Source: Cliona cf. orientalis
Lineage: Eukaryota; Porifera; Demospongiae; Clionaida; Clionaidae
DNA: 64,000 bases
Reading direction: 5' to 3'
NCBI GenBank assembly: GCA_963930775.1
Contig: OZ005703.1
Coordinates: forward strand, 5,022,001 to 5,086,000
Part shown: in pieces, positions 12,630 through 43,604 of the stretch
How the letters are laid out: the number at the start of each line of letters is the position of its first letter
Position numbering within the stretch: position 1 is the first letter of the stretch
Translations under genes and position numbers: made by a program
Notes under the pieces: generated by a model
What the model was told of the DNA's origin: nothing
The model's input: the letters and a program-made list of their open reading frames with translations, nothing else
The model's database searches: none

Positions 12630-13375
12630 ATGTAGCTTGTTGCATGTATGGAGTAATGTACTGTACATGTAGCTGATCCACTCAGTTTGTGCCTATAGTA
12701 CAAACATAGGCTGTAGCTATTCACTACCAGCTACATAAGTTTGTTGAAACCAAATTAAGCTAATTGCCTCTGGTGTCGTCAGTGCCTCTGGTGTCGTTGG
12801 TGCCCCTGGTGTCGTAGATGCCTCTGGTGCCCTTGGTGCCCCTGGTGACTCTGGTGTCGTTGGTGCCCCTGGTGTCGTAGGTGCCTCTGGTTCCCTTGGT
12901 GCCCTAGCCTGGTGCCTCTGGTGTCATTGGTGCCTCTGATGTCGTTGGTGCCCCCGGTGCCTCTGGTGTCGTAGGTGCCTCTGGTGCCCTTGGTGCCCCT
13001 GGTGCCTCTGGTATCGTTGGTGCCCTTGGTGCCCCTGGTGCCTCTGGTGCCTCTGGTACCCTTGGTGCCCCTGGTGCACATTTTTGGCTATCCAACTATG
13101 ATTACAGTGAATACAACTAGAATTTCATCTAACTTTAACAATCCCATATAATATAGTACATGAATTATTGCTCAAAAAGTTGGGGGGGGGGGGGGGGGGC
13201 TTTAGCCCCCCCAAGCCCCCACCTGTCTACACCCTTGATGTAGCTTGTTGCATGTATGGAGTAATGTACTGTACATGTAGCTGATCCACTCAGTTTGTGC
13301 CTATAGTACAAACATAGGCTGTAGCTATTCACTACCAGCTACATAAGTTTGTTGAAACCAAATTAAGCTAATTGT
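12474..13375. repeat. Duplicated MITE half flanking a copied minisatellite block
   Basis: Sequence 12474-12764 is repeated almost exactly at 13077-13373, including the G-run/C-run MITE end and its right flank. Between the copies sits a 311-bp minisatellite block (12765-13075). That block is identical to part of the foldback array at about 14217-14535 apart from one 9-nt unit. Confidence 0.75.
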
Positions 13376-13523
13376 CATAAAAATTTATTGTCCACAAATG
13401 GTCCCTTTCTCACAGCAGGTCTCATAATTAAAGTCTCAATTAGTGACTGTAGTAACCTTGTTAATAAGTAACCAATATACATGAATTTTTATTAAATAAT
13501 CCCTGGGATTTTTGTGTGATTAG

Positions 13524-16500
13524 GTGCAGCTGTCTTACCTTCACGAGAGGGAGGGAGGTTGGGACACGGTACAGGACTGGATGGACGTCCTCAGTGGGGG
13601 AGAGAAGCAACGAATGGCTATAAGATGGTCATGATTATCTTGGATGATTATAGCAACTCAATTTTTTTCAGGTAGTGAGCTCATGTAAGGTGTATCTAGA
13701 AACTGAAAGTTAATCCAATTATTATAATTAGGGTTGTTATTTCTGGTGCTCTTGGTGCCCTTTGTGTCAATGGTGCCCTTAATGCCTCTGGTGTCGTAGG
13801 TGCCCTTGGTGTCCCTGGTGCCTCTGGTGTCGTTGGTGCCCCTGGTGTCGCCGGTGCCTCTGGTGCCCTTGGTGCCTCCGGTGTCGTAGGTGCCACTGGT
13901 GCCCTTGGTGGCCCTGGTGCCTCTGGTGTCATTGGTGCCCCTGGTGCCTCTGGTGTCGCTGGTGCCTCTGGTGCCCTTGGTGACCCTGGTATCGTAAGTG
14001 CCTATGGTGCCCTTGGTGCCCCTGGTGCCCCTGGTGCCCCTGGTGCCTCTGGTGTCGCTGATGCCCTTGATGCCTTTGGTGTCATAGGTGCCTCTGGTGT
14101 CGTTGGTGCCCCTGATGCCTCTGGTGTCACTGATGCCCTTGGTGCCCCTGGTGTCGTAGGTGCCTCTGGTGCCCTTGGTGCCCCTGGTGCCTCTGGTGTC
14201 ATTGGTGCCCCTGGTGCCTCTGGTGTCGTCAGTGCCTCTGGTGTCGTTGGTGCCCCTGGTGTCGTAGATGCCTCTGGTGCCCTTGGTGCCCCTGGTGACT
14301 CTGGTGTCGTTGGTGCCCCTGGTGTCGTAGGTGCCTCTGGTTCCCTTGGTGCCCTAGCCTGGTGCCTCTGGTGTCATTGGTGCCTCTGATGTCGTTGGTG
14401 CCCCCGGTGCCTCTGGTGTCGTAGGTGCCTCTGGTGCCCTTGGTGCCCCTGGTGCCTCTGGTATCGTTGGTGCCCTTGGTGCCCTTGGTGCCCCTGGTGC
14501 CTCTGGTGCCTCTGGTACCCTTGGTGCCCCTGGTGCCTCTGGTGCCCTTGGTGCCCCTGGTGTCGTAGGTGTCTCTGGTGCCCTTAGTGCCCCCGGTGCC
14601 TCTGGTATCGTCAACTTGGTGCCCTTGGTGCCTCTGGTGACGTAGGTGCCTCTGATTTCCTTGGTGCCCCTGGTGCCTTTGGTGTCGTTGGTGCCTCAGA
14701 TGTCGTTGGTGCCCCTGGTGCCACTGGTGTCATTGGTGCCCCTAGCGCCTCTGGTGCCCTTGGTGCCCCGGTGCCTCTGGTGTCTTTGGTGCCCTTGGTG
14801 CCTCTGGTGATGTAGGTGCCTCTTGATGCCCCCGGTGCCTCAGGTGTCATTGGTGTCTCTGGTGCCCTTGGTGCCCCTGGTGCCTTTGGTGTCGTTGGTG
14901 CCTCTAGTGTCGTTGGTGCCCCTGGTGCCTCTGGTGTCGTTGATGTCTCTGGTGCCCTTGGTGCCCCTGGTGCCTCTGGTGTCGTTGGTGACACTGGTGC
15001 CTCTGGTGTTGTAAGTGCCTCTGGTGCCCTTTGTATCGTTGGTGGCCTTGGGGCCTTTTGTGTCGTTGGTGCCTCTGGTGTCATTAGTGCCCTTGGTGTT
15101 GTTGTTACCTCTAGTGCCCTTGGTTTTTTTGTTGGGGCCTCTCGTGTCGCTTCAGCCTTTGCACATATGACATGCATATACACACATGAAGTACGGAGTA
15201 CAACTCCTGATCCGCATTGTATGGTTTTGGTGCTATTTTGCTATTATTGCTCTTTTGCTATTGATAGTAGCAAAATAGCCCAAATAGCAAAATAGCACAA
15301 CTTCCAAAACTTTCTAATTAAAATATCACAATAGCACTGCATAGCATAGCAAAACATCATCACTTACAATGATCATCATCAACCATCAATCATAATTTTA
15401 TTATCTCATTATCATAATTACAACAATATTATTATAGTACACTTATTAAAAATTTAATTATCATGATTACCGATTGATTGAATATTACATATAATTATAC
15501 GAATGATATATATAAACGAGCATTACAATCATTCATCTATGGGTGAGACAAAGATTAGATCTAAAGTAAAATAGAAACTGCTGGAGTAGTGGCATGTGTA
15601 ATACAAATTATGCGGATCCGGAGTTGTACTCTGTACTTCATGTGTGTATATATGTATGTCATATGTGCAGGGCTTCAACGACACCAGATAACAAACCAAG
15701 GGCACTAGAAGCACCAAAGGCATCAAAGGCACCAACGGCACCAAGGACACCAGAGGCACCAACGACACCAGAGGCATCAGGGGCATCAAGGGCACCAAGG
15801 GCACCAGAGACACCAATGACACCAGGGGCATCAAGGGCACCAGAGGCACCAGCGACACCAGGAGCACCAATGACACCAGAGGCACCAGGGGCACCAAGGG
15901 AACCAGAGGCACCTACGACACCAGAGGCACCAGGGGCACCAAGGGCACCAGAGGCACCAGCGACACCAGAGGCACCAGTGGCACCGACCTCACCAGAGGC
16001 ACCAGTACCAGGGGCACCAAGGGCACCAGAGGCACCAGCGACACTAGAGACACCAGAGGCACCTACGACACGAGGCACCAAGGGCACCATTGACACAAGG
16101 GGCACCAAGAGCACCAGAAATAACAACCCTAATTATAATAATTAGATTAACTTTCATTTTCTAGATACACCTTACATGAGCTCACTACCAACTTTCAGAT
16201 GGCGAGGCTGTTCTACCATCGACCTCAGTTTGCCATTCTTGATGAATGCACCAGCACTGTTAGTGTCGACGTGGAGGGATTCATATACTCACACTGTAGG
16301 GAGGTCAGTCGCAGTTAGCATGTGGCCAGTGCTGTCAGCTAGTCCCCGGAGGCTGGCTAAGGCTCCAGCATCTTAGCAGCATATTAGCAATGCTGCATGT
16401 GCAACATGGGAGTATACTAGTAATACTGTTGTGTTCTTGGGTTGATTGAAGTTTTTTTACTTTTGTTCCTCCTTACAGAAAGGGATCACTTTGTTCACTG

Positions 16501-33400: not shown

Positions 33401-36290
33401 CCTACCCACAACAATAGTAACCCAAACTCTAACCCCTACCCAGGCTACTCTGCCTAATCACTGGCCTGGGCATGCCTAGCCTCCTTTGAGGGGGAGAAGA
33501 AAGGGCCTGGTACCTATTGCACACGCATGCGCCAACTACCCAAGAAAACCTGGGGTGCCGCCAACGACTGTACGCTTTTTTGTCCTCCTCCCGTGGCCTA
33601 GGGTACAACGCTGCACCGATATCGCCTCGTACCCTAGGCGCGAGAGGAGAGCGAAAAAGTGTACAGTCGTTTGCGGCACCCCAGGTTTTCTTGGGTAGTT
33701 GGAGTATGCATGTGCAATAGGTACCAGGCCCTCTTTCCTCCTTCCGGGCCTGGGTACGAGGCTAGGGCATGCCCAATCCACATTGTCCCAAAGCAAATCC
33801 TACAGCCGTACACCCTTACTCACTTCATGTGGGGACAGTCCATGATAATGAACTTCTCCACCAGGTCAGGATGCTGGTCAACCACAGCCCTATATACACG
33901 GTAAACATCAGTCAAATTTGCAAATCTCTACAAAAACGATAATTGCTGTCCTAGGCCTTCCAACATCACACGAAATTTCTCTCCCTCTCCCTCTCATTAT
34001 ATCGCTCACCAGGCCACCACCCCTCCCCAGTCATGAGCCACTAGGATACACTTGGAGTGTCCAAGAGCTGGAATGAGCTTCGCAATGTCTTGTGTGAGCA
34101 GGTCAATGGTGTAGTCACTCTTATTAGGAGGTCGCTCAGTCTCTCCATAGCCCCTCATGTCAATGGCTACCACATGATAGTCCTTACTAAACTCAGGAAG
34201 CTGGTAACGCCATGAAAACCAGAACTGGATGGGAGAACATACACAGTAAGATGTTAGTACACTCTTGAGTTGGGACAGTGAGCTAGAGGATAAGGGGCAC
34301 AGGGGAGGGATTAGGGATAGCACCAGAACTGTAGAGTTGGTATTGTTGTGGGAAGGTTACTGCTGGGTCAGTACAAATCATGACAATATAAAAGTGCACT
34401 TCAATTGTAGGTGGCTTATGACCTTATTATTATGACCTTTAGCCAGAAGCCCCTTTGTTGACAGCGGTATTAGTAGCTATTAGTGGACTACTAGTACCAT
34501 GCAACTGGAATTTGGTGTTAAATTAAAATCAGCAAGGCAATCCAGTGGCGTAGGCAGAGGGGGGGGCTTTGGGGGCTCGAGCCCCCCCCCTTCGTCATCA
34601 GCCAAAGTGGGCGTGGCGACAGTTAACATTAGCTTCCTTGCAGTAAGTACTCATGAATACTACACTATACTGCTCAACTTACATCTTAACAATCCATTTC
34701 AGCTGTAGAAATCCATACCTTTCAGCGCTTGAAGCACGGCGGGCGATGTATAAGAACTCGCGCAAGCTTACTATACTTTAGCTTAGAGTTCGAAGCTCAA
34801 TTGTCAATATGCAATCACGTGATCCTAATTAGTGGGCGTGGCCAAGGCGGAAACTTTCGCGCATTGTCAAGCCCCCCCCCATGCTCAGAATCCTGGCTAC
34901 ACCCCTGCAATCCCATACCAAATGAAAATTTAAATCCTTGCAAATGCAATTTGAATTGGGACCCAACTGCCAAACGTAATCCCTGCACACATTACATGTA
35001 GATGGAATACAATGGAACCCTGCTTAACGGACACCCCTCAACGGTACGGTGGACGCCGGTGATATAACGGACCATTCTAAATGTCCACGTTGTATTTCCA
35101 TAGACTTCAATATATTCAAACCCCCTCAACAGCGGACACCCCACTATTCCGTATAACGGACACTTATTTTGGTCCTGTTCGAGCCTGCACAGTATTGAAC
35201 AACCTCGCATATATAATGGACAGTTAGGCCACACCCACCATTAAAATCGGTCTGTTTCAACGACCAGTAACTACAGTAAAGCCTAAATATGTCTTAAATT
35301 CTCGCTTAGGAGCTGTCAGTTGACAGATCTCTCATCAATGATCTTTTCGTTGTCCACAGTAGTGCTTTATCATAGCTAGCCGTGATTGTAGGAGGGGCAT
35401 GGTCAACCACAGTGGCGTATCCAGGATTTGAAGGAAGGAGGTGCTAGGTTGATCGTGCGCAAAGCGTGCGTGCAAAATTTTTAGCCACGCCCCAAAACGT
35501 TGACCATGCCCCTCATTTACACGTTCTTGAAGACAAAGAAGGCTGTTTTAGGCCTAGTGACAATGAGAAAACGCTGTTTAAGGAGCGAATTTTAGAGGCC
35601 AGTAAGTTTATTGTTGGTAGGAACTGCCAGTTATCGATTATCATTGACAATATTTGTGCTGAGGTACTGAGCTGGCTGTTGTGCCAGAGCTGAGGGGGGT
35701 GCTCAGCACCCTGAGCTCCATGCTAGATACGCCACTGAACCACTAACCCCTGAGCTAAGGACACCTAGCTACAGCGGACAAAAGTTTTGGTCCCGCTTTA
35801 GATAGGTTCCACTGTATAGATTATCTACAGTGGGAGGCTTTGACATACAAAGTAACATAAATATCAGAATATTTAATAGTGGAGGGAGACTCACCTCAGG
35901 GAATCCATGTAGGAATAGCATGAGAGGTTTGGATCGGTCCCCAGCTGTGACATAGTGGAACTTGATCCCATTGGCTGTCACATACTCATGACTACCAAGA
36001 CTACGATCCAAAAGACAATCAGGAGGAACTGCAAGAAAACAAATTGCGTTCAAACAAGATTTGATAGAAGTAAACTAGACTACGTGCAGTCCTAATCATT
36101 TCCCTTGGCAAGCCTAGCTTTCCAATCTATGGTAGACTATATAGAAGGCTAGCTCACCATTCCTAGGGATCTTCTTGAAAATGATGAAGGGATGCGTTAT
36201 CACCTCCCAGACGATCATGAATAGAGCTATTATCCCTCCCACCACCATCATCACTAGCCCGAACAGCAGATTCCCAAGGATACTCGCCAT
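30483..36290 (-). CDS. Epoxide hydrolase 4-like alpha/beta hydrolase, gene D
   Basis: Nine exons: 36158-36290, 35895-36028, 34010-34224, 33824-33889, 33143-33194, 32555-32650, 31131-31304, 30669-30742 and 30483-30567; 1029 nt, 342 aa in frame. Exons 4-9 and their introns are closest to gene C, but exon 1 (MASILGNLLFGLVMMVVGG) is unlike the B/C exon 1, so the C/D duplication or a later conversion replaced one end. Catalytic elements are all present: HGFPE, HDWGG, YYRCMF, GDDD, CSHW. Exon 3 has KLIPALG where the other copies have ELIPALG. The introns contain five transposon insertions described separately. The start codon faces the death/Roc gene 470 bp away. Confidence 0.85.
31326..31904. mobile_element. 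CCGTATAGC MITE in gene D intron 6, absent from gene C
   Basis: TA|CCGTATAGCTCCAAATTTTC at the left and GAAAATTTGGAGCTATACGG|TA at the right. Gene C reads CACATAGTCACAC at the same point with one TA, which is the empty site. A 108-codon open frame inside (31558-31884, minus) has no recognised domain. Confidence 0.8.
31942..32475. mobile_element. CAGGGCCGTAGGA MITE in gene D intron 6, absent from gene C
   Basis: CAGGGCCGTAGGACGCAA at the left, TTGCGGCTCCTACGGCCCTG at the right, flanked by ACCTA (31937-31941 and 32476-32480). Gene C has one ACCTA at the matching site. Near the right end GCGGCCGTT repeats in tandem. Confidence 0.8.
33477..33764. mobile_element. Mutator-like palindromic MITE, gene D copy
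   Basis: Same position and same GGGCATGCC target duplication as the gene C copy (26417-26715), with an 11-bp deletion near the left end (TAGCCTCCTTTGAGG). Confidence 0.7.
34544..34906. mobile_element. AGTGGCGTAGGCAG MITE in gene D intron 2
   Basis: Flanked by GCAATCC (34537-34543 and 34907-34913), with ends AGTGGCGTAG and CTACACCCCT, and paired G/C runs at about 34559 and 34872. Confidence 0.65.
35010..35814. mobile_element. Pogo-like MITE, second copy, interrupted by a nested MITE
   Basis: TA|CAATGGAACCC at the left and GGTTCCACTG|TA at the right. The interior matches 2877-3358 except for the 327-bp nested element at 35411-35737. Confidence 0.75.
35411..35737. mobile_element. AGTGGCGTATCCAG MITE nested in the pogo-like MITE
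   Basis: Ends AGTGGCGTATCCAGGAT and GCTAGATACGCCACTG, flanked by AACCAC (35405-35410 and 35738-35743). The unoccupied site is seen in the other pogo-like copy at about 3277-3282 (GTCAACCACTGATCC). Confidence 0.75.
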
Positions 36291-36760
36291 ACCTCGCTCT
36301 TATGCAGCCATACTCTGTGTGGGGTTAGTCGAATGCATCTGCGCATGCGTATTTATAAGCGATGTTACAGTAGTGATTTTTGATGGGTGAGGCTTGTAAC
36401 GACTAAAACCACAAAATTTTAATGGCGGAGCAGGCGGTGTCAATAAACAAACCCAGCGGCCGAGAGGGTGAGCAAATTAGTATGGATGAGCATTTAATAA
36501 TAATCAAAGGAAAAGAGTAAACTCTATAGAGATTGACGAGCTAGTGTGTTGGGCGGTGTGGTGTGGGCTAGCTGAACCGCTATCTCCATCCACTAGTATA
36601 AACATTTCTATTGGTGGATCCACTATAATAATATTATATATATGTAATATAGCATTGTACGCTCTGCTCCATGGCTGTACAAGTAGTAGGAGTCCTGATT
36701 CACAGAAATTGAGCTGGGGAAAGGATTGTGTCACTGAGTAGCTGTGTGTCAGATCTGTAC
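36291..36760. promoter_or_regulatory. Head-to-head promoter region of gene D and the death/Roc gene
   Basis: 470 bp separate the two divergent start codons. It contains an NRF-1-like box at 36341 and AT-rich stretches (TAATAATATTATATATATG at 36626). It may act as a shared, bidirectional promoter. Confidence 0.4.
36341..36350. promoter_or_regulatory. NRF-1-like motif upstream of gene D
   Basis: TGCGCATGCGT, about 51 bp upstream of the gene D ATG; third member of a set also found upstream of genes B and C. Confidence 0.4.
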
Positions 36761-39700
36761 ATGTCTGAGTATGGATGCATGGGGGAAATGAACGGTGTTT
36801 GTGAATGTCATCTACCCTACCCAGCCCTACCCCTCACTGTTGATAACGTATTTGAGGCGGTGAAGACAGTGAGGCTGAGCTGGAGTCAGCTGGCCTGGGA
36901 GCTGGGGCTGTATAAGCTACGTGCCATCAAGTGTCAGCATGACTCTGACGAGGCTCATCTAAGAGCTGTGGTGGCAGCATTCCTCCTGGGGGAAGGTATG
37001 TATCAACCCTCGTGGAGGATGCTCATTCATCGATTACATAAAGCAGACAAAGGCCATCTGATTGAAAAGATTAAGACCAATGCCGAACCACACCAAGGTG
37101 AGTGGATGTCATCATGCAGTGTAGAGTGGGAAGTAATTACGCTTTTCACATACCATAGTGGGAAACCTTCGAGGGAGAGCTTGGCAATTTTCATGAATTT
37201 CACAGTTTAAGAGCCACCTACGAAAGTTTCTCCATGGCATGCCACACCCACCTACATGATTTATTTACTTCAATCTTTTTCATTTCCTACTGATCCTTGA
37301 AAACTTTCTCCCTCGAAAGTTTCTCGCTATACAATAAAATGTATACACCTTTGCTTGTTGGGATCAGGTGCATGTATACGTGAGAACAGTGTTGTGTGTG
37401 CTGAAGTGAGGATCTATGGCTTCAAAGATAATTATAAGAGCCAATGGCCATCTGGGGCCTGGGGGCATGCCCCCCCCCCCCCCCCCCCCCGGAAAATTTG
37501 ACCTTAATGGAGTGCTTTTGAGGCCTTCTGACCACCTTCTTCTGATTGTATAAAGGCATGAAAAAATGCACTTAAAATTCAAAGAAATGAGGGGGCTTAG
37601 CCCCCCTTCCATAGGCGGCAATAGCCTTATATCAGTTCTGAGTCAAAAATATGCTAGTTTCATTGCTGCTCTCTTTGAAATCGACTATTTTTTTGCCAGT
37701 TGTCCATCGTTGTTTCTAGATTTTCACGAACACGATACCGCTAATTAGTGGGCACGGCTTAAAGTTTTGCGCGTGGATCCTCTTACATCTTAGCCCCCTC
37801 ACATTCAATATGCTTCCGCCACCTACGCCTTCTTTCAAACAGGGGAGCTAAAGCCCTCTGTGCCCCCCATATTTTTCGACCTATGAGTGGTGTGTGTGTG
37901 TGTGGTACATGAAAATTCAGTAGGTTTATCTTCTACTACCAATCCAAACCTAAGGGGAAAACCATCTCACTGCCTGCTCAGGCAAACCTAATTTAAGCAA
38001 AAGGCAGAGCCACATAGGTGCCTAGCCTTGAGAACTAGGGGTGGTACACCTAGTGATCGAGTAGCATCGTAATAATACCGTACCCTCGCGAAAGAGGGCC
38101 CACTACGGAATGTTGGCCCACCCCCCACTTTGCGCTCAATTTCCTGCTAAGGTCTAGTGTTTACTCGAATATGCGCCCATGTGTAGCTGCCCTTGAAAAC
38201 CCAGCTCAAATGGCTGGTTTATAAAGACTGAACTTCGAATAGTCTATATAAGATCGATAAGTAACGTGCTAAACAGCTGTAAAACTAAGCCTAGGAGGCT
38301 TTATGCCACATTTTAGCACAAATAAACCATCGTACACGGCTAGCAATTGTACCCACGCCCACTTGATATGGCTGCTCTCAACGACATACGGTGAAGTATC
38401 GCGGCTGCCCTTGCTCTGGATTGGTAACCGTGCTTGAATAAGGCTGAAATCAATAGTAGCCGCTGCTACTATTGAAATTATGATGCTAGCGTGGGTAACT
38501 TACCTGGGCGCTCTTTCGTATGTAAATGCGATACTGATACCTCGAATATCGGCCCATCCCCCGATCTTGGCCCAATGTGAGGTGCACCGTCCATGGGCCC
38601 TCTTTCGTGAGGGTATGGTACATGTAACTTTATTACTATGTACCTATAAATGCCTACCTAGTTGTAACATAATGATCAGACCTCAAGGGGATAACTCGTC
38701 CATAGCACGAGTCATTATAATGAGTATATTGCTTCTGTTCCCCCAGACCCCTCTATGATAGTTGATAATGTCACTCAAATACTGAACAAGATACCAGCAG
38801 ATAAGTGGGATGAGGTAATGGATGAAAATCTGGGACTTGGTATTCCCAAGCCGCTGCAGAAGGAGAGATACTCCACTGACACAGAGAAGATCCATGCATA
38901 CGCAGATTACTATGTGAATTGCCATCCTTGGGCTGATTGGGAACATCTTACTGTGATACTGTATCAAACGAAGGAATATGCCTTAGCAAGGGAGTCCAAG
39001 TCATTCATATCAACTGGTAAAAGAATACTACCACTACATATCTAAGCTACTGTACCGACATGCTCGTATGATAAAGTTATTGATACACCTGCTGTGCTCA
39101 TTATATCCCGCAGTAGCAATTTACTTTTCTGCGGTTATTAGGTAATTATGATGTAATTGTGAGGTAGAACTAATATCGTAAAATTAGGGCTTCGACAGAG
39201 CTCATTTGAGACCTGAAAATTCGCTGAGGTATAGATTGACTTACACATAATATATCCAGCGAATACCTTAGAAGTTCCATGTTACAAGTGCCACTGTTGT
39301 AATTCCACGAGTTTTCTGGGCTGACGTATGGTATAGCACTACATTTAGCATGTGTATGGTATAATTATATAGTGCGCATGCTTACCGTTCTATGCACGCG
39401 TCACAACCAATCTGTACAGTGCTGTTGAGTTCGTCTCTGTGATTAAAGCATTCTGACTTGTCACTATTGAGTTTGAGAATCGGTCTCAGACTCCATCATT
39501 GTCAACTTCTGACATCTCTGAGATTGAGCATAAGGCATCACCATATTGACAATGTTTTAGCTACCATATGCACAAGTACAACTATGCAGGTAGTGGGGAC
39601 ATGGTCAAGTGTTTCATTAATTAGCATTATATACCATGCACCCTACACACTCTGGTATATATGAACTTGTAGGATTTAGTGTGAGGTGTAGTAGTGATGT

Positions 39701-42700
39701 TGTCCACCCTCTTCCCCCCAGACCCCACTCTGACAGTAGAAAACGTCAGTCGTATCATGGAGAAGGTCGAGCCAAAAGTGAAGACACAGGTGTGGGAGAA
39801 TGCTTGTGATGCCAACATGGAGAGAGAGAAGATGAAGGAAGTGTGCATATCTGGGAAGGAGGATGAATGTGCTAACTTATATGTCAACTATAACCCATAT
39901 TCTTCATGGGAACGGCTTGCCAGGTCACTATACCGTCATCACCAGATGGTTGCAGTTGAGGAAGTGAGGTCATATCTCCCTCCTAGAGGTGAGCCTTGCT
40001 CTACATGTTGCTTATATTTTGTGCCATGATTCTCATTGAGTAATATACAAACACTTAATTGTCCTTTGCACAGACCTCACTGTGACTACTAAGAAACAAA
40101 TGGAACTGTTTGCACCACTGCACCCTGATAAGGTAGATGAACTTGGCTACTACCTAGATCTACCACAGTCTGAGATAGACAGAATACAGAAGGACTACCA
40201 GAGCCCAACCCAGAGGAAAGAGGCCTACTTAGACCTCTACGTCCATCAACATCCCTGCCCTAGTTGGAGCTGGGTTGCTAGAGTACTCCGTTATATGATC
40301 AATCTTCACCAGCAGGCTGATTTGGTGGAGAATACTTATGTCAAAGGTGCACAAGACACACTGTAGTGAGACTGTTGCCTGTGTAACATCAACCTACTGT
40401 ATTAATGTAGCTCATTAGTCATGCTTTAGCCACCACCTTTGGTCATTCGTTTGGAGGATGCGTGTGTATGCATTGTATGTACGTATAGGAGTACATAAAC
40501 CACCATATTGCAAAAAGGCCGGGGTCCCACTTTGCGCTTTCGTGGATAACTACGAAAATTAAGTATGCATCTAATGTAGCAATGTTTGTGAACCATGCTA
40601 TAGTCCCCACATTAATTATTTTGTATGTATTGATGTGGGGATGTGTGTATAATTTTGGATGATAATGTGCTGTGTGTATTGGATGTTCAATATAGTGTGC
40701 ATGCATGCATACACATACACTTGATGATCTCAATAGAGTTAATATCAGCCAATTGTATTTCAAGCCTTTTTCTCACACAAATCAGTACACCAGCTATATA
40801 TCTCACGTTTAGACTTATATACGATTCCTTGCTTTATTCTGTTCCTACAGTTAGTGAGAAAACCCAGCGGTGCTTTGATGTAGCCATGATAGAGGGTGAA
40901 GTGTTGTTGCGAAATGGCAGTGCCTTGCTCTTAGGGGTGGGAGGATCAGGAAAAACGCACATCCTTGCAGCTTTCCTCAAGGAAGATCCTCCGTCAATAC
41001 GAGAAAGCACTCCATGTGCAAAGAAGCCAGTGAGAGCTGTAGCTCGCTGTAAGGCAGGAGTGAGCGATGACCACTTTGTACGAATCACTGATGATTACTA
41101 TTCTGATATGCTTGTAACAACAGCTGAGACATTACCTCAGTCAACTGATAGTGAAGCTGTTGCTAAACCTTCTACCCAAGCCGAGGCTAAGAATGACCTG
41201 AACAGTTTAGCTAGTTCTTCATCTCCTAGTCAGAAGGAAACCACGAGGCAGCCATCATCAGCTGTCAAAGTAGATGCTTCACGACGAGAGAAAACATGGT
41301 GTGTTCGTCGTGCTATGAAGAGACAGTACCTGAGTCGAATGCAGGCAGGAACAAAGAAGAAAACCAACCTCAATGACAAAGATTTGCTTGACATCGATGA
41401 CACAGGAGGCCAGCCTATGTTTCACGAGGTCCTCCCTGTGTTCGTCCAAAACACCATGCTTGGCATACTGACAGTGAAGCTCAATGAGCCCTTAGACAGC
41501 TTTCCTCAAGTCGAGTTCTACACCAGAGGACAACGTGTTGGGGAGCCATTCAATTCACCTTTTACACACTTGGATACACTTCGTCACTGCATGAGGGTGA
41601 TACGATCAACCTGTGACCACAACACATGTCCAAAGATTGCATTTGTGGGCACACACAATGATCTCCAGCACGAATGCCCACAGGAGAGCATAGAAATAAA
41701 GGAGAAGAAGCTTCGAAGCATCATACCTCAGGAGATGGAGGATAATATTATCATCAATGGAGAGTCACTGCTGCTTGCTGTCAACGTAAAAACACCAGGA
41801 AATGAAGATGAGAAGGTGATATCCATTTTGAGGGAGAAGGCAATTGTAGAATTGCGTAAATTGAAGCCGAAAAAGATGCCACTTCGATACATACCCTTGG
41901 AAATGGCCTTTCAGCGAATAGCCAAGGAGCAACGAAAATCAGTGATGAGCAAAGAAGAGTGCTTTGAAGTAGCAGCTACCTACAATTTTACACAAGAATC
42001 ATTTGAGGCGGCACTGAAGTACCTTCATGGGCTGAAGCTGATCTTCTACTATGAAGAAGTTCTTCCGAATGTCGTGTTCATCGATGCCCAGGCCATCCTC
42101 GATAAAATTACCGAACTTGTAGTGCACAGCCTATCATTGCAAGCGAAATCAAGTGGTAACCTTCTTGGAGCTCTGAAGAAATTCGTGAAACGTGGAATCG
42201 TGACAGCGGAGATACTTAAACAGTTCTCATCTCATTACATCCCTACGTTATTCATGAAGGAGCAGCTGATCTTGGTTCTCAAGCATCTGAGGATCATGGC
42301 AGAGGTTGGAAAAGGTGAGTATCTCATGCCCTGCCTCCTGAGGAAACAAGACATGCCACATGTTGTGGCAGGTGTTTCATTGTTAGTCATCCCTGCTCTT
42401 CTCTTCTACTTTGGTCGAGACGGCCCCAAGCTTGGAGTTTACTGCTTTCTCCTTGCTTCTCTCATCACTGAAGCCAAGTGGGAGCTTCTTGAAGAGGATG
42501 GCTACCCTGTACAAGTTTCTCGCAACAGTGCTCAGTTCACTGTCCCGGGAAAGAATCCAGGATCCATCACAATCACAGATTCCTTTTCTTCATACCTTCA
42601 CGTCAGCATCGACTTCCCTGCCTCTGTCAGCCGAGAAAGAGCTCAAGAAATCTGCGAAAAGGTTTGTCCAACGATTCGTGAAACGGTTCTAACTGGAATT

Positions 42701-43604
42701 CGCAAAGCATCTCAGAGACTGAACTATAACAATTCAATTCCCTCCATTGCATTCCCATGTTCAGGACACAAAGACACACCCCTGCATCCTGCTACGCTTT
42801 CTGAAGATGAAAAGCTGCTGATTTGCTCCACACACCCAGCCAAGGTGTGCAGTGAGGTGACTGAATGGCACAAGATTTGGATAGGGAAAAGATTGTTGAA
42901 GGATGGAAGTGACAAAGGTGAGAAAATGGTGATGGACCATGCAATGCATGTACAATTGATTTTTCCCTGCCCACCTCATGCATAAACCCCCTCCCCTTTT
43001 TACCCATGATAGCATGCAGAAAGAAGGATACATAATTATTGAATCCTTCATAATTGTAGGTTAGGTTCTCTACAGTAGCTATTGACAACAAGCTCTATGT
43101 ACCATCATAATAATTATAATAATAATATTATTATTATCACTGTATATAGGAGAAGCAAGTCCTAAAGGTCGAGAAACTTATGCCAGTGGTCCTGCAGCAC
43201 CACCTCCACAAATTGCCACTATTGGTGAGAAATTGCAATTCAATGAACTTCAAGGTATGATTACATGCTCTTATTATTCATACAGATGCTACTCCAACCC
43301 TCAAGAATTTATCAATTTTGAGACAGCTGAAGGAAAGAAAATCAAGATAATTTCAACGGTTGCATCGAGATGGAGAGCACTAGGAGACCAGTTGGAATTT
43401 GACGAGCTCGGTTCAAAATTGGATACTATCAAAACCAAGAACAACAATGATCCGGAAGAATGCTGTCGTGAAATGTTCCAACACTGGTTGAAGGGGAGTG
43501 GAGTAAGACCTTGCTCGTGGCGCAAACTCATTGAACTGCTCGAAGACTGTGACTTTGAGATGCTGGCCGGACAGGTGAATTCTGTTTTTAATGCAAAAGT
43601 TTAA
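36761..43604 (+). CDS. Death-module repeat / Roc-COR-type GTPase / death-domain protein
   Basis: Seven exons: 36761-37097, 38747-39016, 39722-39988, 40074-40346, 40851-42917, 43150-43254 and 43306-43604. Every junction is phase 1 and the sum is 3618 nt (1205 aa). Exons 1-4 each encode one ~90-residue module starting with a TVxNV-like strand and ending with an SWRxLIxxL or SWxxLAxxL helix; module 1 is clearly death-domain-like, the others are more diverged. Exon 5 holds a GTPase: P-loop GVGGSGKT near residue 411, DDTGGQPMF (G3) and FVGTHND (G4), then a COR-like region with VFIDAQAILDKI. After a Pro-rich linker the last exon encodes a C-terminal death domain (WRALGDQL...SWRKLIELLED). Likely a cytosolic signalling GTPase in apoptosis or innate-type signalling; this is inferred from domains. 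The last intron is uncertain, because 43255-43305 is also open in frame. An upstream start is possible. Confidence 0.75.
37435..37870. repeat. G/C-run repeat in intron 1 of the death/Roc gene
   Basis: GGCATGCCCCCC... at 37463, GGGGGGCTTAGCCCCCCTT at 37589 and GCTAAAGCCCTCTGTGCCCCCC at 37848 resemble the interiors of the G/C-run MITEs elsewhere, but clear terminal repeats were not found. Confidence 0.4.
38077..38618. mobile_element. MITE with TACCNTACCCTC ends in intron 1 of the death/Roc gene
   Basis: TA|CCGTACCCTCGCGAAAGAGG at the left and CTCTTTCGTGAGGGTATGG|TA at the right, with further inverted GGGCCCA and TTGGCCCA words. TA duplication suggests a Tc1-mariner-type source. Confidence 0.7.

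Follow-up and report, generated by a model that had tools for sequence, protein, structure and literature searches.

We analysed a stretch of 64,000 nucleotides from the sponge Cliona cf. orientalis (assembly GCA_963930775.1, contig OZ005703.1, positions 5,022,001 to 5,086,000 of the forward strand), referred to below as the window, and found that it carries a gene for a predicted protein of 1192 amino acids in which four death-fold modules (modules 1 to 4) are followed by a Roc-COR-type GTPase, a linker and a death domain at the C-terminus. The corrected gene model has eight exons, seven phase-1 introns and no internal stops (Table 1), and was derived from genomic sequence alone, by rule-based splicing on splice signals and by comparison with paralogs. 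The order proposed in the initial annotation of this DNA, namely four serial modules on separate phase-1 exons, then Roc/COR and, up to 43604, a C-terminal death domain, is borne out by the splicing model and the paralogs. Its start codon at 36761, which was also that of our initial rule-based model (an open frame over seven exons with every intron in phase 1), had to be given up, as it is ruled out by a conserved acceptor at 36825, where the module 1 exon opens, by stops in the paralogs and by an upstream exon that holds the ATG. In six of seven paralogs the module 1 acceptor is preceded, at 25-52 bases, by an in-frame stop, with no ATG between; in the seventh (L037) the stop is 127 bases away and an ATG is present. 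Additionally, a short first exon of the form MAxx...G/GT is found upstream in the window and in 7/7 paralog sequences, one of which (L019) also fits other candidates. About 21 N-terminal residues of the module 1 model correspond to intron, because the Pfam scan, AlphaFold2 and Foldseek were run on the stretch from 36761. A phase-1 AG acceptor and a G/GT donor are present in 32/36 paralog exons of module 2, 40/41 of module 3 and 41/41 of module 4 (counts that leave out the copies of locus L041 and exons at locus ends), and this conservation of the exons across dozens of paralogs indicates that the gene structure is more than chance. A run of 21 C at window positions 37470-37490, within the intron that separates modules 1 and 2, is a possible weak spot of the assembly.

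Table 1. Exons and GTPase motifs of the death-fold/Roc-COR gene, in window coordinates (a slash marks the splice junction).
Feature	Position	Strand	Content	Evidence
Exon 1	36422..36467	+	start codon; encodes the short peptide MAEQAVSINKPSGRE at the N-terminus; phase-1 donor	ATG...G/GTRAG block conserved in the window and 7/7 paralogs
Exon 2	36825..37097	+	module 1 (death domain)	acceptor placed from paralogs; Pfam Death, AlphaFold2, Foldseek
Exon 3	38747..39016	+	module 2 (divergent death-fold)	hhalign to module 3 and module 4 profiles
Exon 4	39722..39988	+	module 3 (divergent death-fold)	AlphaFold2 and profile comparison
Exon 5	40074..40346	+	module 4 (death domain)	Pfam Death above cut-off
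Exon 6	40851..42917	+	Roc-like GTPase, then COR	COR-A and Roc matches; long low-complexity insert between G1 and G3
G1/P-loop	40934..40957	+	GVGGSGKT	read directly; G29, G31, G32, G34, K35 and T36 invariant in 20/20 aligned copies
G3 motif	41399..41413	+	DTGGQ	D184, T185, G186, G187 and Q188 invariant in 20/20 aligned copies
G4-like motif	41651..41662	+	THND (THxD)	T268, H269 and D271 invariant in 20/20 aligned copies
Exon 7	43150..43254	+	linker	splice signals and phase
Exon 8	43327..43604	+	C-terminal death domain and stop	Pfam Death

The reading of a Roc-type GTPase and a C-terminal death domain, likewise made in the initial annotation, was confirmed by the motifs GVGGSGKT, DTGGQ and THxD, which we take to be the G1, G3 and G4 motifs of Roc, by a COR match behind the Roc match, and by a Pfam Death score of 32.0 bits (E-value 1.4e-7; cut-off 22.6 bits) for the C-terminal domain. 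The invariance of the motif residues was scored over 20 of 28 distinct Roc-COR copies. In the window protein, Roc matches at residues 164-210 with 21.0 bits (E-value 4e-4; Pfam cut-off 27) and COR-A at residues 345-497 (positions 2-143 of the 143 of the model) with 30.3 bits (E-value 4.5e-7; Pfam cut-off 35.3), and at an E-value of 0.01 or less COR-A is found in 20/20 and Roc in 18/20 of the aligned copies. A curated Pfam cut-off is a library threshold and not a biological definition; since both matches are below theirs, we name the protein Roc-COR-type or ROCO-like and not a certified ROCO member. Searching the PDB with the Roc-COR region returned three weak Rab21 rows with phmmer and one chance-level row with a profile. 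The exon 7 linker has no Pfam family at an E-value of 10 or less.

Next, we examined the modules themselves. Module 4 exceeds the Pfam Death cut-off (25.0 bits) and module 1, scored on the stretch from 36761, falls just under it (19.3 bits). Modules 2 and 3 gave no Pfam Death match at an E-value of 1 or less in any of 18 members each, and are for that reason assigned to the death fold only through structure prediction and linked profiles. The expectation of the initial annotation that ordinary domain models would miss modules 2 to 4 thus holds for modules 2 and 3 and fails for module 4. By hhalign, the module 2 profile aligns to that of module 3 at 99.6% and to that of module 4 at 97.2% (E-value 4e-11). 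Structure prediction covered modules 1 and 3: the AlphaFold2 model of module 3 is an antiparallel six-helix bundle of the death superfamily, as had been proposed for it, and not another fold, and that of module 1 (again the stretch from 36761) has a mean predicted local distance difference test score of 74.8, with Foldseek rows 1-28 all being death domains, none at an E-value of 0.001 or less. The predicted death-fold nature of the modules is thereby tied together by profile comparison, plus the AlphaFold2 model for module 3. PDB searches with the profiles of module 4 (four rows) and module 2 (three rows) returned no death domain. As for the shared motifs that had been described (a TVxNV start, a Trp/Leu core and a final SW-x-x-L), a single W and a single L are invariant in the comparison of five modules, but module 4 begins with TVTTKKQ and module 2 has DW in place of SW.

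The C-terminal death domain was compared across loci L001-L030, that is, the window copy and 29 others. Scored against the window's own domain, it falls into three classes, with 9 copies at 167-203 bits, 7 at 36-47 bits and 13 at 18-28 bits, and among these loci L020 has no C-terminal death domain match. Examples of the other two classes (two each) are all over the Pfam Death cut-off (4/4, 25.0-30.3 bits), and the C-terminus is constant in kind across the family. In some of these copies the domain is a separate exon, in others it lies in the same open frame as Roc-COR.

Upon searching the 216.8-Mb assembly (149 contigs), we found that the window gene is far from alone. With a 107-residue Roc segment, the best 150 of 430 candidates fall into three bands of identity, 75% or more (65 rows), 61-69% (65 rows) and 41-46% (20 rows), which gives at least about 130 close loci, a few of the rows being partial or with stops. 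For the window Roc-COR exon, 569 candidates yielded 65 scored rows, the exon's own among them; identity is 83-89% for many, and the matches cluster on contigs C8 (2.66-2.87 and 9.00-9.57 Mb), C5, C11 and C9; in-frame stops occur in 3/30 Roc-COR exons of L001-L030. Modules 1 to 4 and the C-terminal domain have at least 150 matches each. Across 33 loci (L042-L074), the order of modules 1 to 4 is kept in 31 and a second module 3 is present in 2, a count from a non-random sample, because the loci were chosen for closely spaced module matches. The suggestion that phase-1 module exons could be duplicated freely is supported by these second module 3 exons in 2/33 loci and by one array with seven exons of module 2 type. 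Relative to the initial annotation, the family size and hypervariability are new observations, and a single-scaffold reading misses the main point, as the window gene is one of about 130 close copies (some of them partial or with stops) with selection in the modules. Relatives outside the assembly were sought among viral contigs, with one pattern match, and among those of bacteria and archaea, with 35; none was confirmed in either.

Several members of the family are peculiar in their arrangement. The array (C8:7636001-7653200, minus strand; L041, L075 and L076) holds two module 1 exons, seven near-identical exons of module 2 type about 540-580 bases apart, one module 3 and one module 4, and is not claimed as a single intact gene, because no Roc-COR was found in the 4.7 kb beyond module 4. 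By coordinates alone, other copies have several module 2-like exons ahead of the Roc exon (e.g. C8:8068285-8081115). Members at C8:2763151, 2802472 and 2840674, spaced by 39.3 and 38.2 kb, score equally or nearly so; these near-identical copies near 2.8 Mb reflect either a very recent segmental duplication or assembly duplicates. Finally, a distant cluster at C18:5207816-6481573 (41-46% identity in the Roc segment) has long single open frames that contain both Roc and the C-terminal death domain, with weak module 4-like exons nearby, and is possibly an older, simpler layout of the family.

Subsequently, we investigated how selection acts on the different parts of the protein. Codon models were fitted with our own implementation and not PAML (fixed FastTree topology, scaled branch lengths, Nelder-Mead optimisation, naive posteriors), on 34, 37, 42 and 42 sequences of modules 1 to 4, drawn from 38, 47, 61 and 61 hits; identical copies and those of L041 were dropped, as were, earlier, hits covering less than about 85% of the module (about 72% for module 1). 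Copies entered irrespective of whether they are working genes, and the module 1 set leaves out the window's own copy. Model M2a was strongly preferred over M1a, with twice the log-likelihood difference (2dlnL) being 263.8, 192.6, 163.7 and 200.3 for modules 1 to 4, respectively, and a ratio of nonsynonymous to synonymous rates (dN/dS, omega) of 3.7-4.7 on 21-28% of codons. With gap-safe codons only, those within two columns of any column of less than 95% occupancy having been removed, 2dlnL remained at 121.9, 162.9, 87.6 and 127.0. In the Roc-COR control (28 copies, seven segments of similar length) the values were 0.1, 7.6, 1.3, 0.3, 0, 4.2 and 0, the segment at 7.6 (p-value 0.02) being the low-complexity insert, and in two sets of the C-terminal death domain, covering two of its three classes, they were 0 and 0, a weak null result because the sets hold only 8 and 7 sequences. 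Null simulations on the module 4 tree (n=8) reached at most 1.6. In a tree-free comparison of the 12 closest disjoint pairs, dN/dS at the selected sites was 2.10, 2.18, 1.73 and 3.92 for modules 1 to 4, and outside them 0.65, 0.57, 0.88 and 0.46. By parsimony, peak nine-codon windows had an omega of 1.93, 1.73, 1.75 and 1.87 and the lowest ones 0.23, 0.12, 0.17 and 0.03, with helix 4 of module 4 near 0.03-0.05 and the helix-5 region of module 2 at 0.7-0.95. The diversifying-selection signal is confined to the four N-terminal modules.

When the selected codons were assigned to the helices and loops of the death fold, their distribution was highly uneven. In the aligned paralogs the module ends and helix 4 are kept, and strong variation is seen in the helix-2 to helix-3 region, including indels, and around helix 5. 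Helices 1, 4 and 6 hold 2/137 selected codons versus 52/239 elsewhere (Fisher p-value 2.8e-9, sites taken as independent). The variable elements are helix 2 (7/42), the H2-H3 loop (14/31), helix 3 (5/37), the H4-H5 loop (5/22), helix 5 (14/41) and the H5-H6 loop (4/13), and the quiet ones helix 1 (1/40), helix 4 (0/56) and helix 6 (1/41); other positions have 3/53. Helices 2 and 5 are neighbours in the death fold. In the MyD88 filament, as described in PMC7054835, type I contacts run from helices 1 and 4 to helices 2 and 3, and type II contacts from helix 4 and the H4-H5 loop to helix 6 and the H5-H6 loop, making helices 2 and 3, the H4-H5 loop and the H5-H6 loop standard death-domain contact surfaces. 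On this contact map, the variable elements overlap one side of the usual contacts, and the H1/H4 side is fixed.

The modules show strong diversifying selection and the GTPase and output domain do not, which points towards a role in recognition or specificity, and a constant switch and output combined with variable N-terminal faces make the layout of a receptor repertoire. We see about an even chance that the window gene is a member of a large, tandemly expanded intracellular death-domain/Roc-COR family that works as a diversified recognition system. Somewhat short of even stands the bolder proposal that in an animal the death domain has itself become a hypervariable module for recognition. Exon-encoded strings of it, with diversified faces on a constant framework, would be linked by the GTPase to a steadier death-domain output and would have multiplied to well over 100 loci. 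The layout is the one expected of a candidate immune or self/non-self sensor and not of a one-off scaffold. The distribution of sites over the helices bears on the main rival, in which the death-fold platform of each paralog is homotypic and separate. Its faces would have diverged to keep more than 100 paralogs from assembling with one another, and the variable partner would be the module itself or a dedicated adaptor and not a pathogen. This rival would account for selected sites on elements that make standard death-fold contacts, for many coexisting copies and for little or no such signal in Roc-COR and the output domain, but co-diverging self-contacts should vary on both sides, and helices 1 and 4, the type I partners of helices 2 and 3, hardly vary; we consider it rather unlikely.

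Several observations weigh against a recognition repertoire under diversifying selection. Whole-module omega is below 1, at 0.71-0.81 by parsimony, as is whole-exon pairwise dN/dS (0.57-0.83 in the modules; 0.24 in Roc-COR), and parsimony, a weak test, finds only 5, 5, 2 and 1 single sites in modules 1 to 4 at an uncorrected p-value < 0.05. The tree-free ratios are biased upwards, because the selected sites were chosen from the same data, and dS too is raised at those sites in modules 1 to 3. The sites of the helix counts come from the same data as the codon models, and the helix limits, taken from AlphaFold2 for modules 1 and 3 and transferred by alignment to modules 2 and 4, were drawn after the sites were known. 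Selection was inferred from paralogs of a single genome, chosen from those that match the window best, and the Roc and COR-A scores are, as given above, below their cut-offs. Furthermore, the exons differ in their histories. The 14 complete genes among the 15 tried (module 1 of the window is absent from that set) have a median pairwise dS of 0.225, 0.288, 0.398 and 0.114 for modules 1 to 4 and of 0.300 for Roc-COR, with dS rank correlations between exons of 0.29 to 0.79. Gene conversion or exchange between copies at the scale of exons is likely; as codon models can be misled by it, it poses the chief technical risk for the test of selection. Taken further, the modules may simply drift under relaxed constraint amid birth and death of copies, with gene conversion reshuffling segments and inflating the codon tests. 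The copies with stops, the discordant exon histories and uneven dS, the whole-module ratios below 1 and the weak site-by-site parsimony all fit such an origin, which we nevertheless judge quite improbable: drift alone does not yield dN > dS at clustered sites while helix 4 of module 4 stays near an omega of 0.03-0.05, Roc-COR is at most marginal, in its low-complexity insert, null simulations remain below 2, and gap-safe columns still give 88-163.

If the family is a diversified recognition system, the N-terminal modules would present the variable faces formed by helices 2, 3 and 5 and the H2-H3, H4-H5 and H5-H6 loops, and these would bind fast-changing partners. The likeliest such partners are pathogen molecules aimed at death-domain signalling, or ligands of self and non-self. 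Once bound, they would alter the Roc-COR switch, whose state as dimer or oligomer would depend on GTP, and a shared adaptor or effector downstream would be recruited by the C-terminal death domain, the steadier part. The symmetric phase-1 exons would let modules be duplicated, lost or exchanged with the frame intact. The switch step is plausible because MASL1, a human ROCO protein, forms complexes in a manner controlled by GTP binding (PMC3995007), and GTP-controlled assembly remains plausible here. MASL1 and the domain order would equally suit the reading of the initial annotation, a multivalent death-fold scaffold of a generic kind that assembles under GTP control, if it is taken to have no role in recognition; this reading leaves both the expansion and the module-confined selection unexplained and seems highly improbable. 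Were the system one of recognition, it might also serve tissue compatibility in place of pathogen sensing, as a label of self and non-self in an animal that is sessile and colonial. A tandem hypervariable family with a steadier output would be in keeping with such allorecognition, as would a mitochondrial gene that fits a sponge or a cnidarian. With a short polar peptide in the predicted first exon and intracellular signalling domains, however, direct sensing by surface contact is not expected (membrane segments were not searched for), and we regard allorecognition as very unlikely.

Finally, we compared the window protein with known systems. Its domains are of known kinds, a Roc-COR-type GTPase and death domains; new is the large family with hypervariable death-domain arrays. 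Roc-COR is common to it and the animal ROCO proteins (DAPK1, LRRK1/2, MASL1/MFHAS1), of which DAPK1 ends in a death domain after Roc-COR. The death domain of DAPK1 is documented (PMC3995007), but unlike the animal ROCO proteins the window protein has N-terminal death modules and a large family. DAP kinases have a protein kinase and ankyrin repeats ahead of Roc-COR, and with no match to either by Pfam the window protein does not qualify as one. Nearest in design are the brown-algal ROCO proteins with leucine-rich repeats (LRRs), described from Ectocarpus and Saccharina as proposed immune receptors with one LRR per 72-bp phase-2 exon, exon shuffling, and positive selection at four concave-face sites in M1/M2 and M7/M8 model comparisons (PMC11378527). 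The two share a Roc-COR core, variable N-terminal repeats on single symmetric exons, shuffling, diversifying selection and a large family, whereas the repeats are LRRs in the algae and whole death folds on phase-1 exons of about 270 bp here, with a C-terminal death domain in addition. As Pfam finds no LRR in the window protein, the resemblance is one of design and not of membership, and it is probably convergent because the lineages are distant.

Among sponges, a group known for very large expansions of death-superfamily proteins, Amphimedon has 357 TRADD-N proteins of the NCOA6 clade, most architectural types of which carry 1-3 N-terminal death-like domains, and which are proposed for immunity (PMC8195603). 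Their diversification is inferred there from column entropies, and the main text of that article uses neither the term "positive selection" nor "hypervariable". Alike is the sponge-scale, lineage-specific expansion with N-terminal death-superfamily domains; unlike is that the Amphimedon proteins combine TRADD-N with variable C-termini, whereas here the N-terminal death modules vary most. No TRADD-N was found in the window protein by a Pfam scan, and the Amphimedon domains were reached by transitive searches, which go further than such a scan. Dysidea avara has 128 DEATH genes, and its NLR repertoire is likewise made up of NTPase proteins that carry death domains and form large families (PMC12909245). 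NLRs have NACHT and LRRs, however, and neither these nor NB-ARC matched at an E-value of 10 or less over the whole window protein, where only a weak AAA_16 was seen (E-value 0.049). Death-domain arrays on Roc-COR with diversified faces were not found described in the literature titles and abstract openings searched, a coverage mostly outside subscription journals. If the recognition reading is true, the family would be a third solution for a diverse germline recognition repertoire, besides LRR-based and immunoglobulin-based ones. Death domains are usually viewed as conserved adaptors, and here four serial ones would carry selected variable faces while the switch is fixed. Sponge-grade animals may thus hold large recognition repertoires made of signalling domains, with concrete sites and exons available for testing, and the parallel with the brown-algal receptors would make Roc-COR a chassis reused for exon-shuffled repertoires.

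Additional features were observed in the window and the assembly. Divergent from the studied gene, an alpha/beta hydrolase exon lies on the minus strand at window positions 34006-34356 (Abhydrolase_1, E-value 7e-15), and possible further exons of that gene at 35769-36299 on the same strand, with 35769-36074 being without a Pfam match. GC-rich tandem repeats with units of 9, 18, 27, 36 and 45 bases occupy 12765-15124 and 15695-16118; translated by eye, the two blocks would read as Gly-X-Y collagen-like sequence in opposite orientations. Among 116 matches to the cathepsin family in the assembly, five were inspected for silicatein; the catalytic Cys motif is present in four and the fifth could not be read in frame, so that no silicatein was shown among these five. 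COX1 was found on C111:18775-19431 and C149:4243-4899 with equal scores, 93% identity to a demosponge-like fragment and two in-frame TGA each, and the assembly probably contains two copies of the mitochondrial genome.

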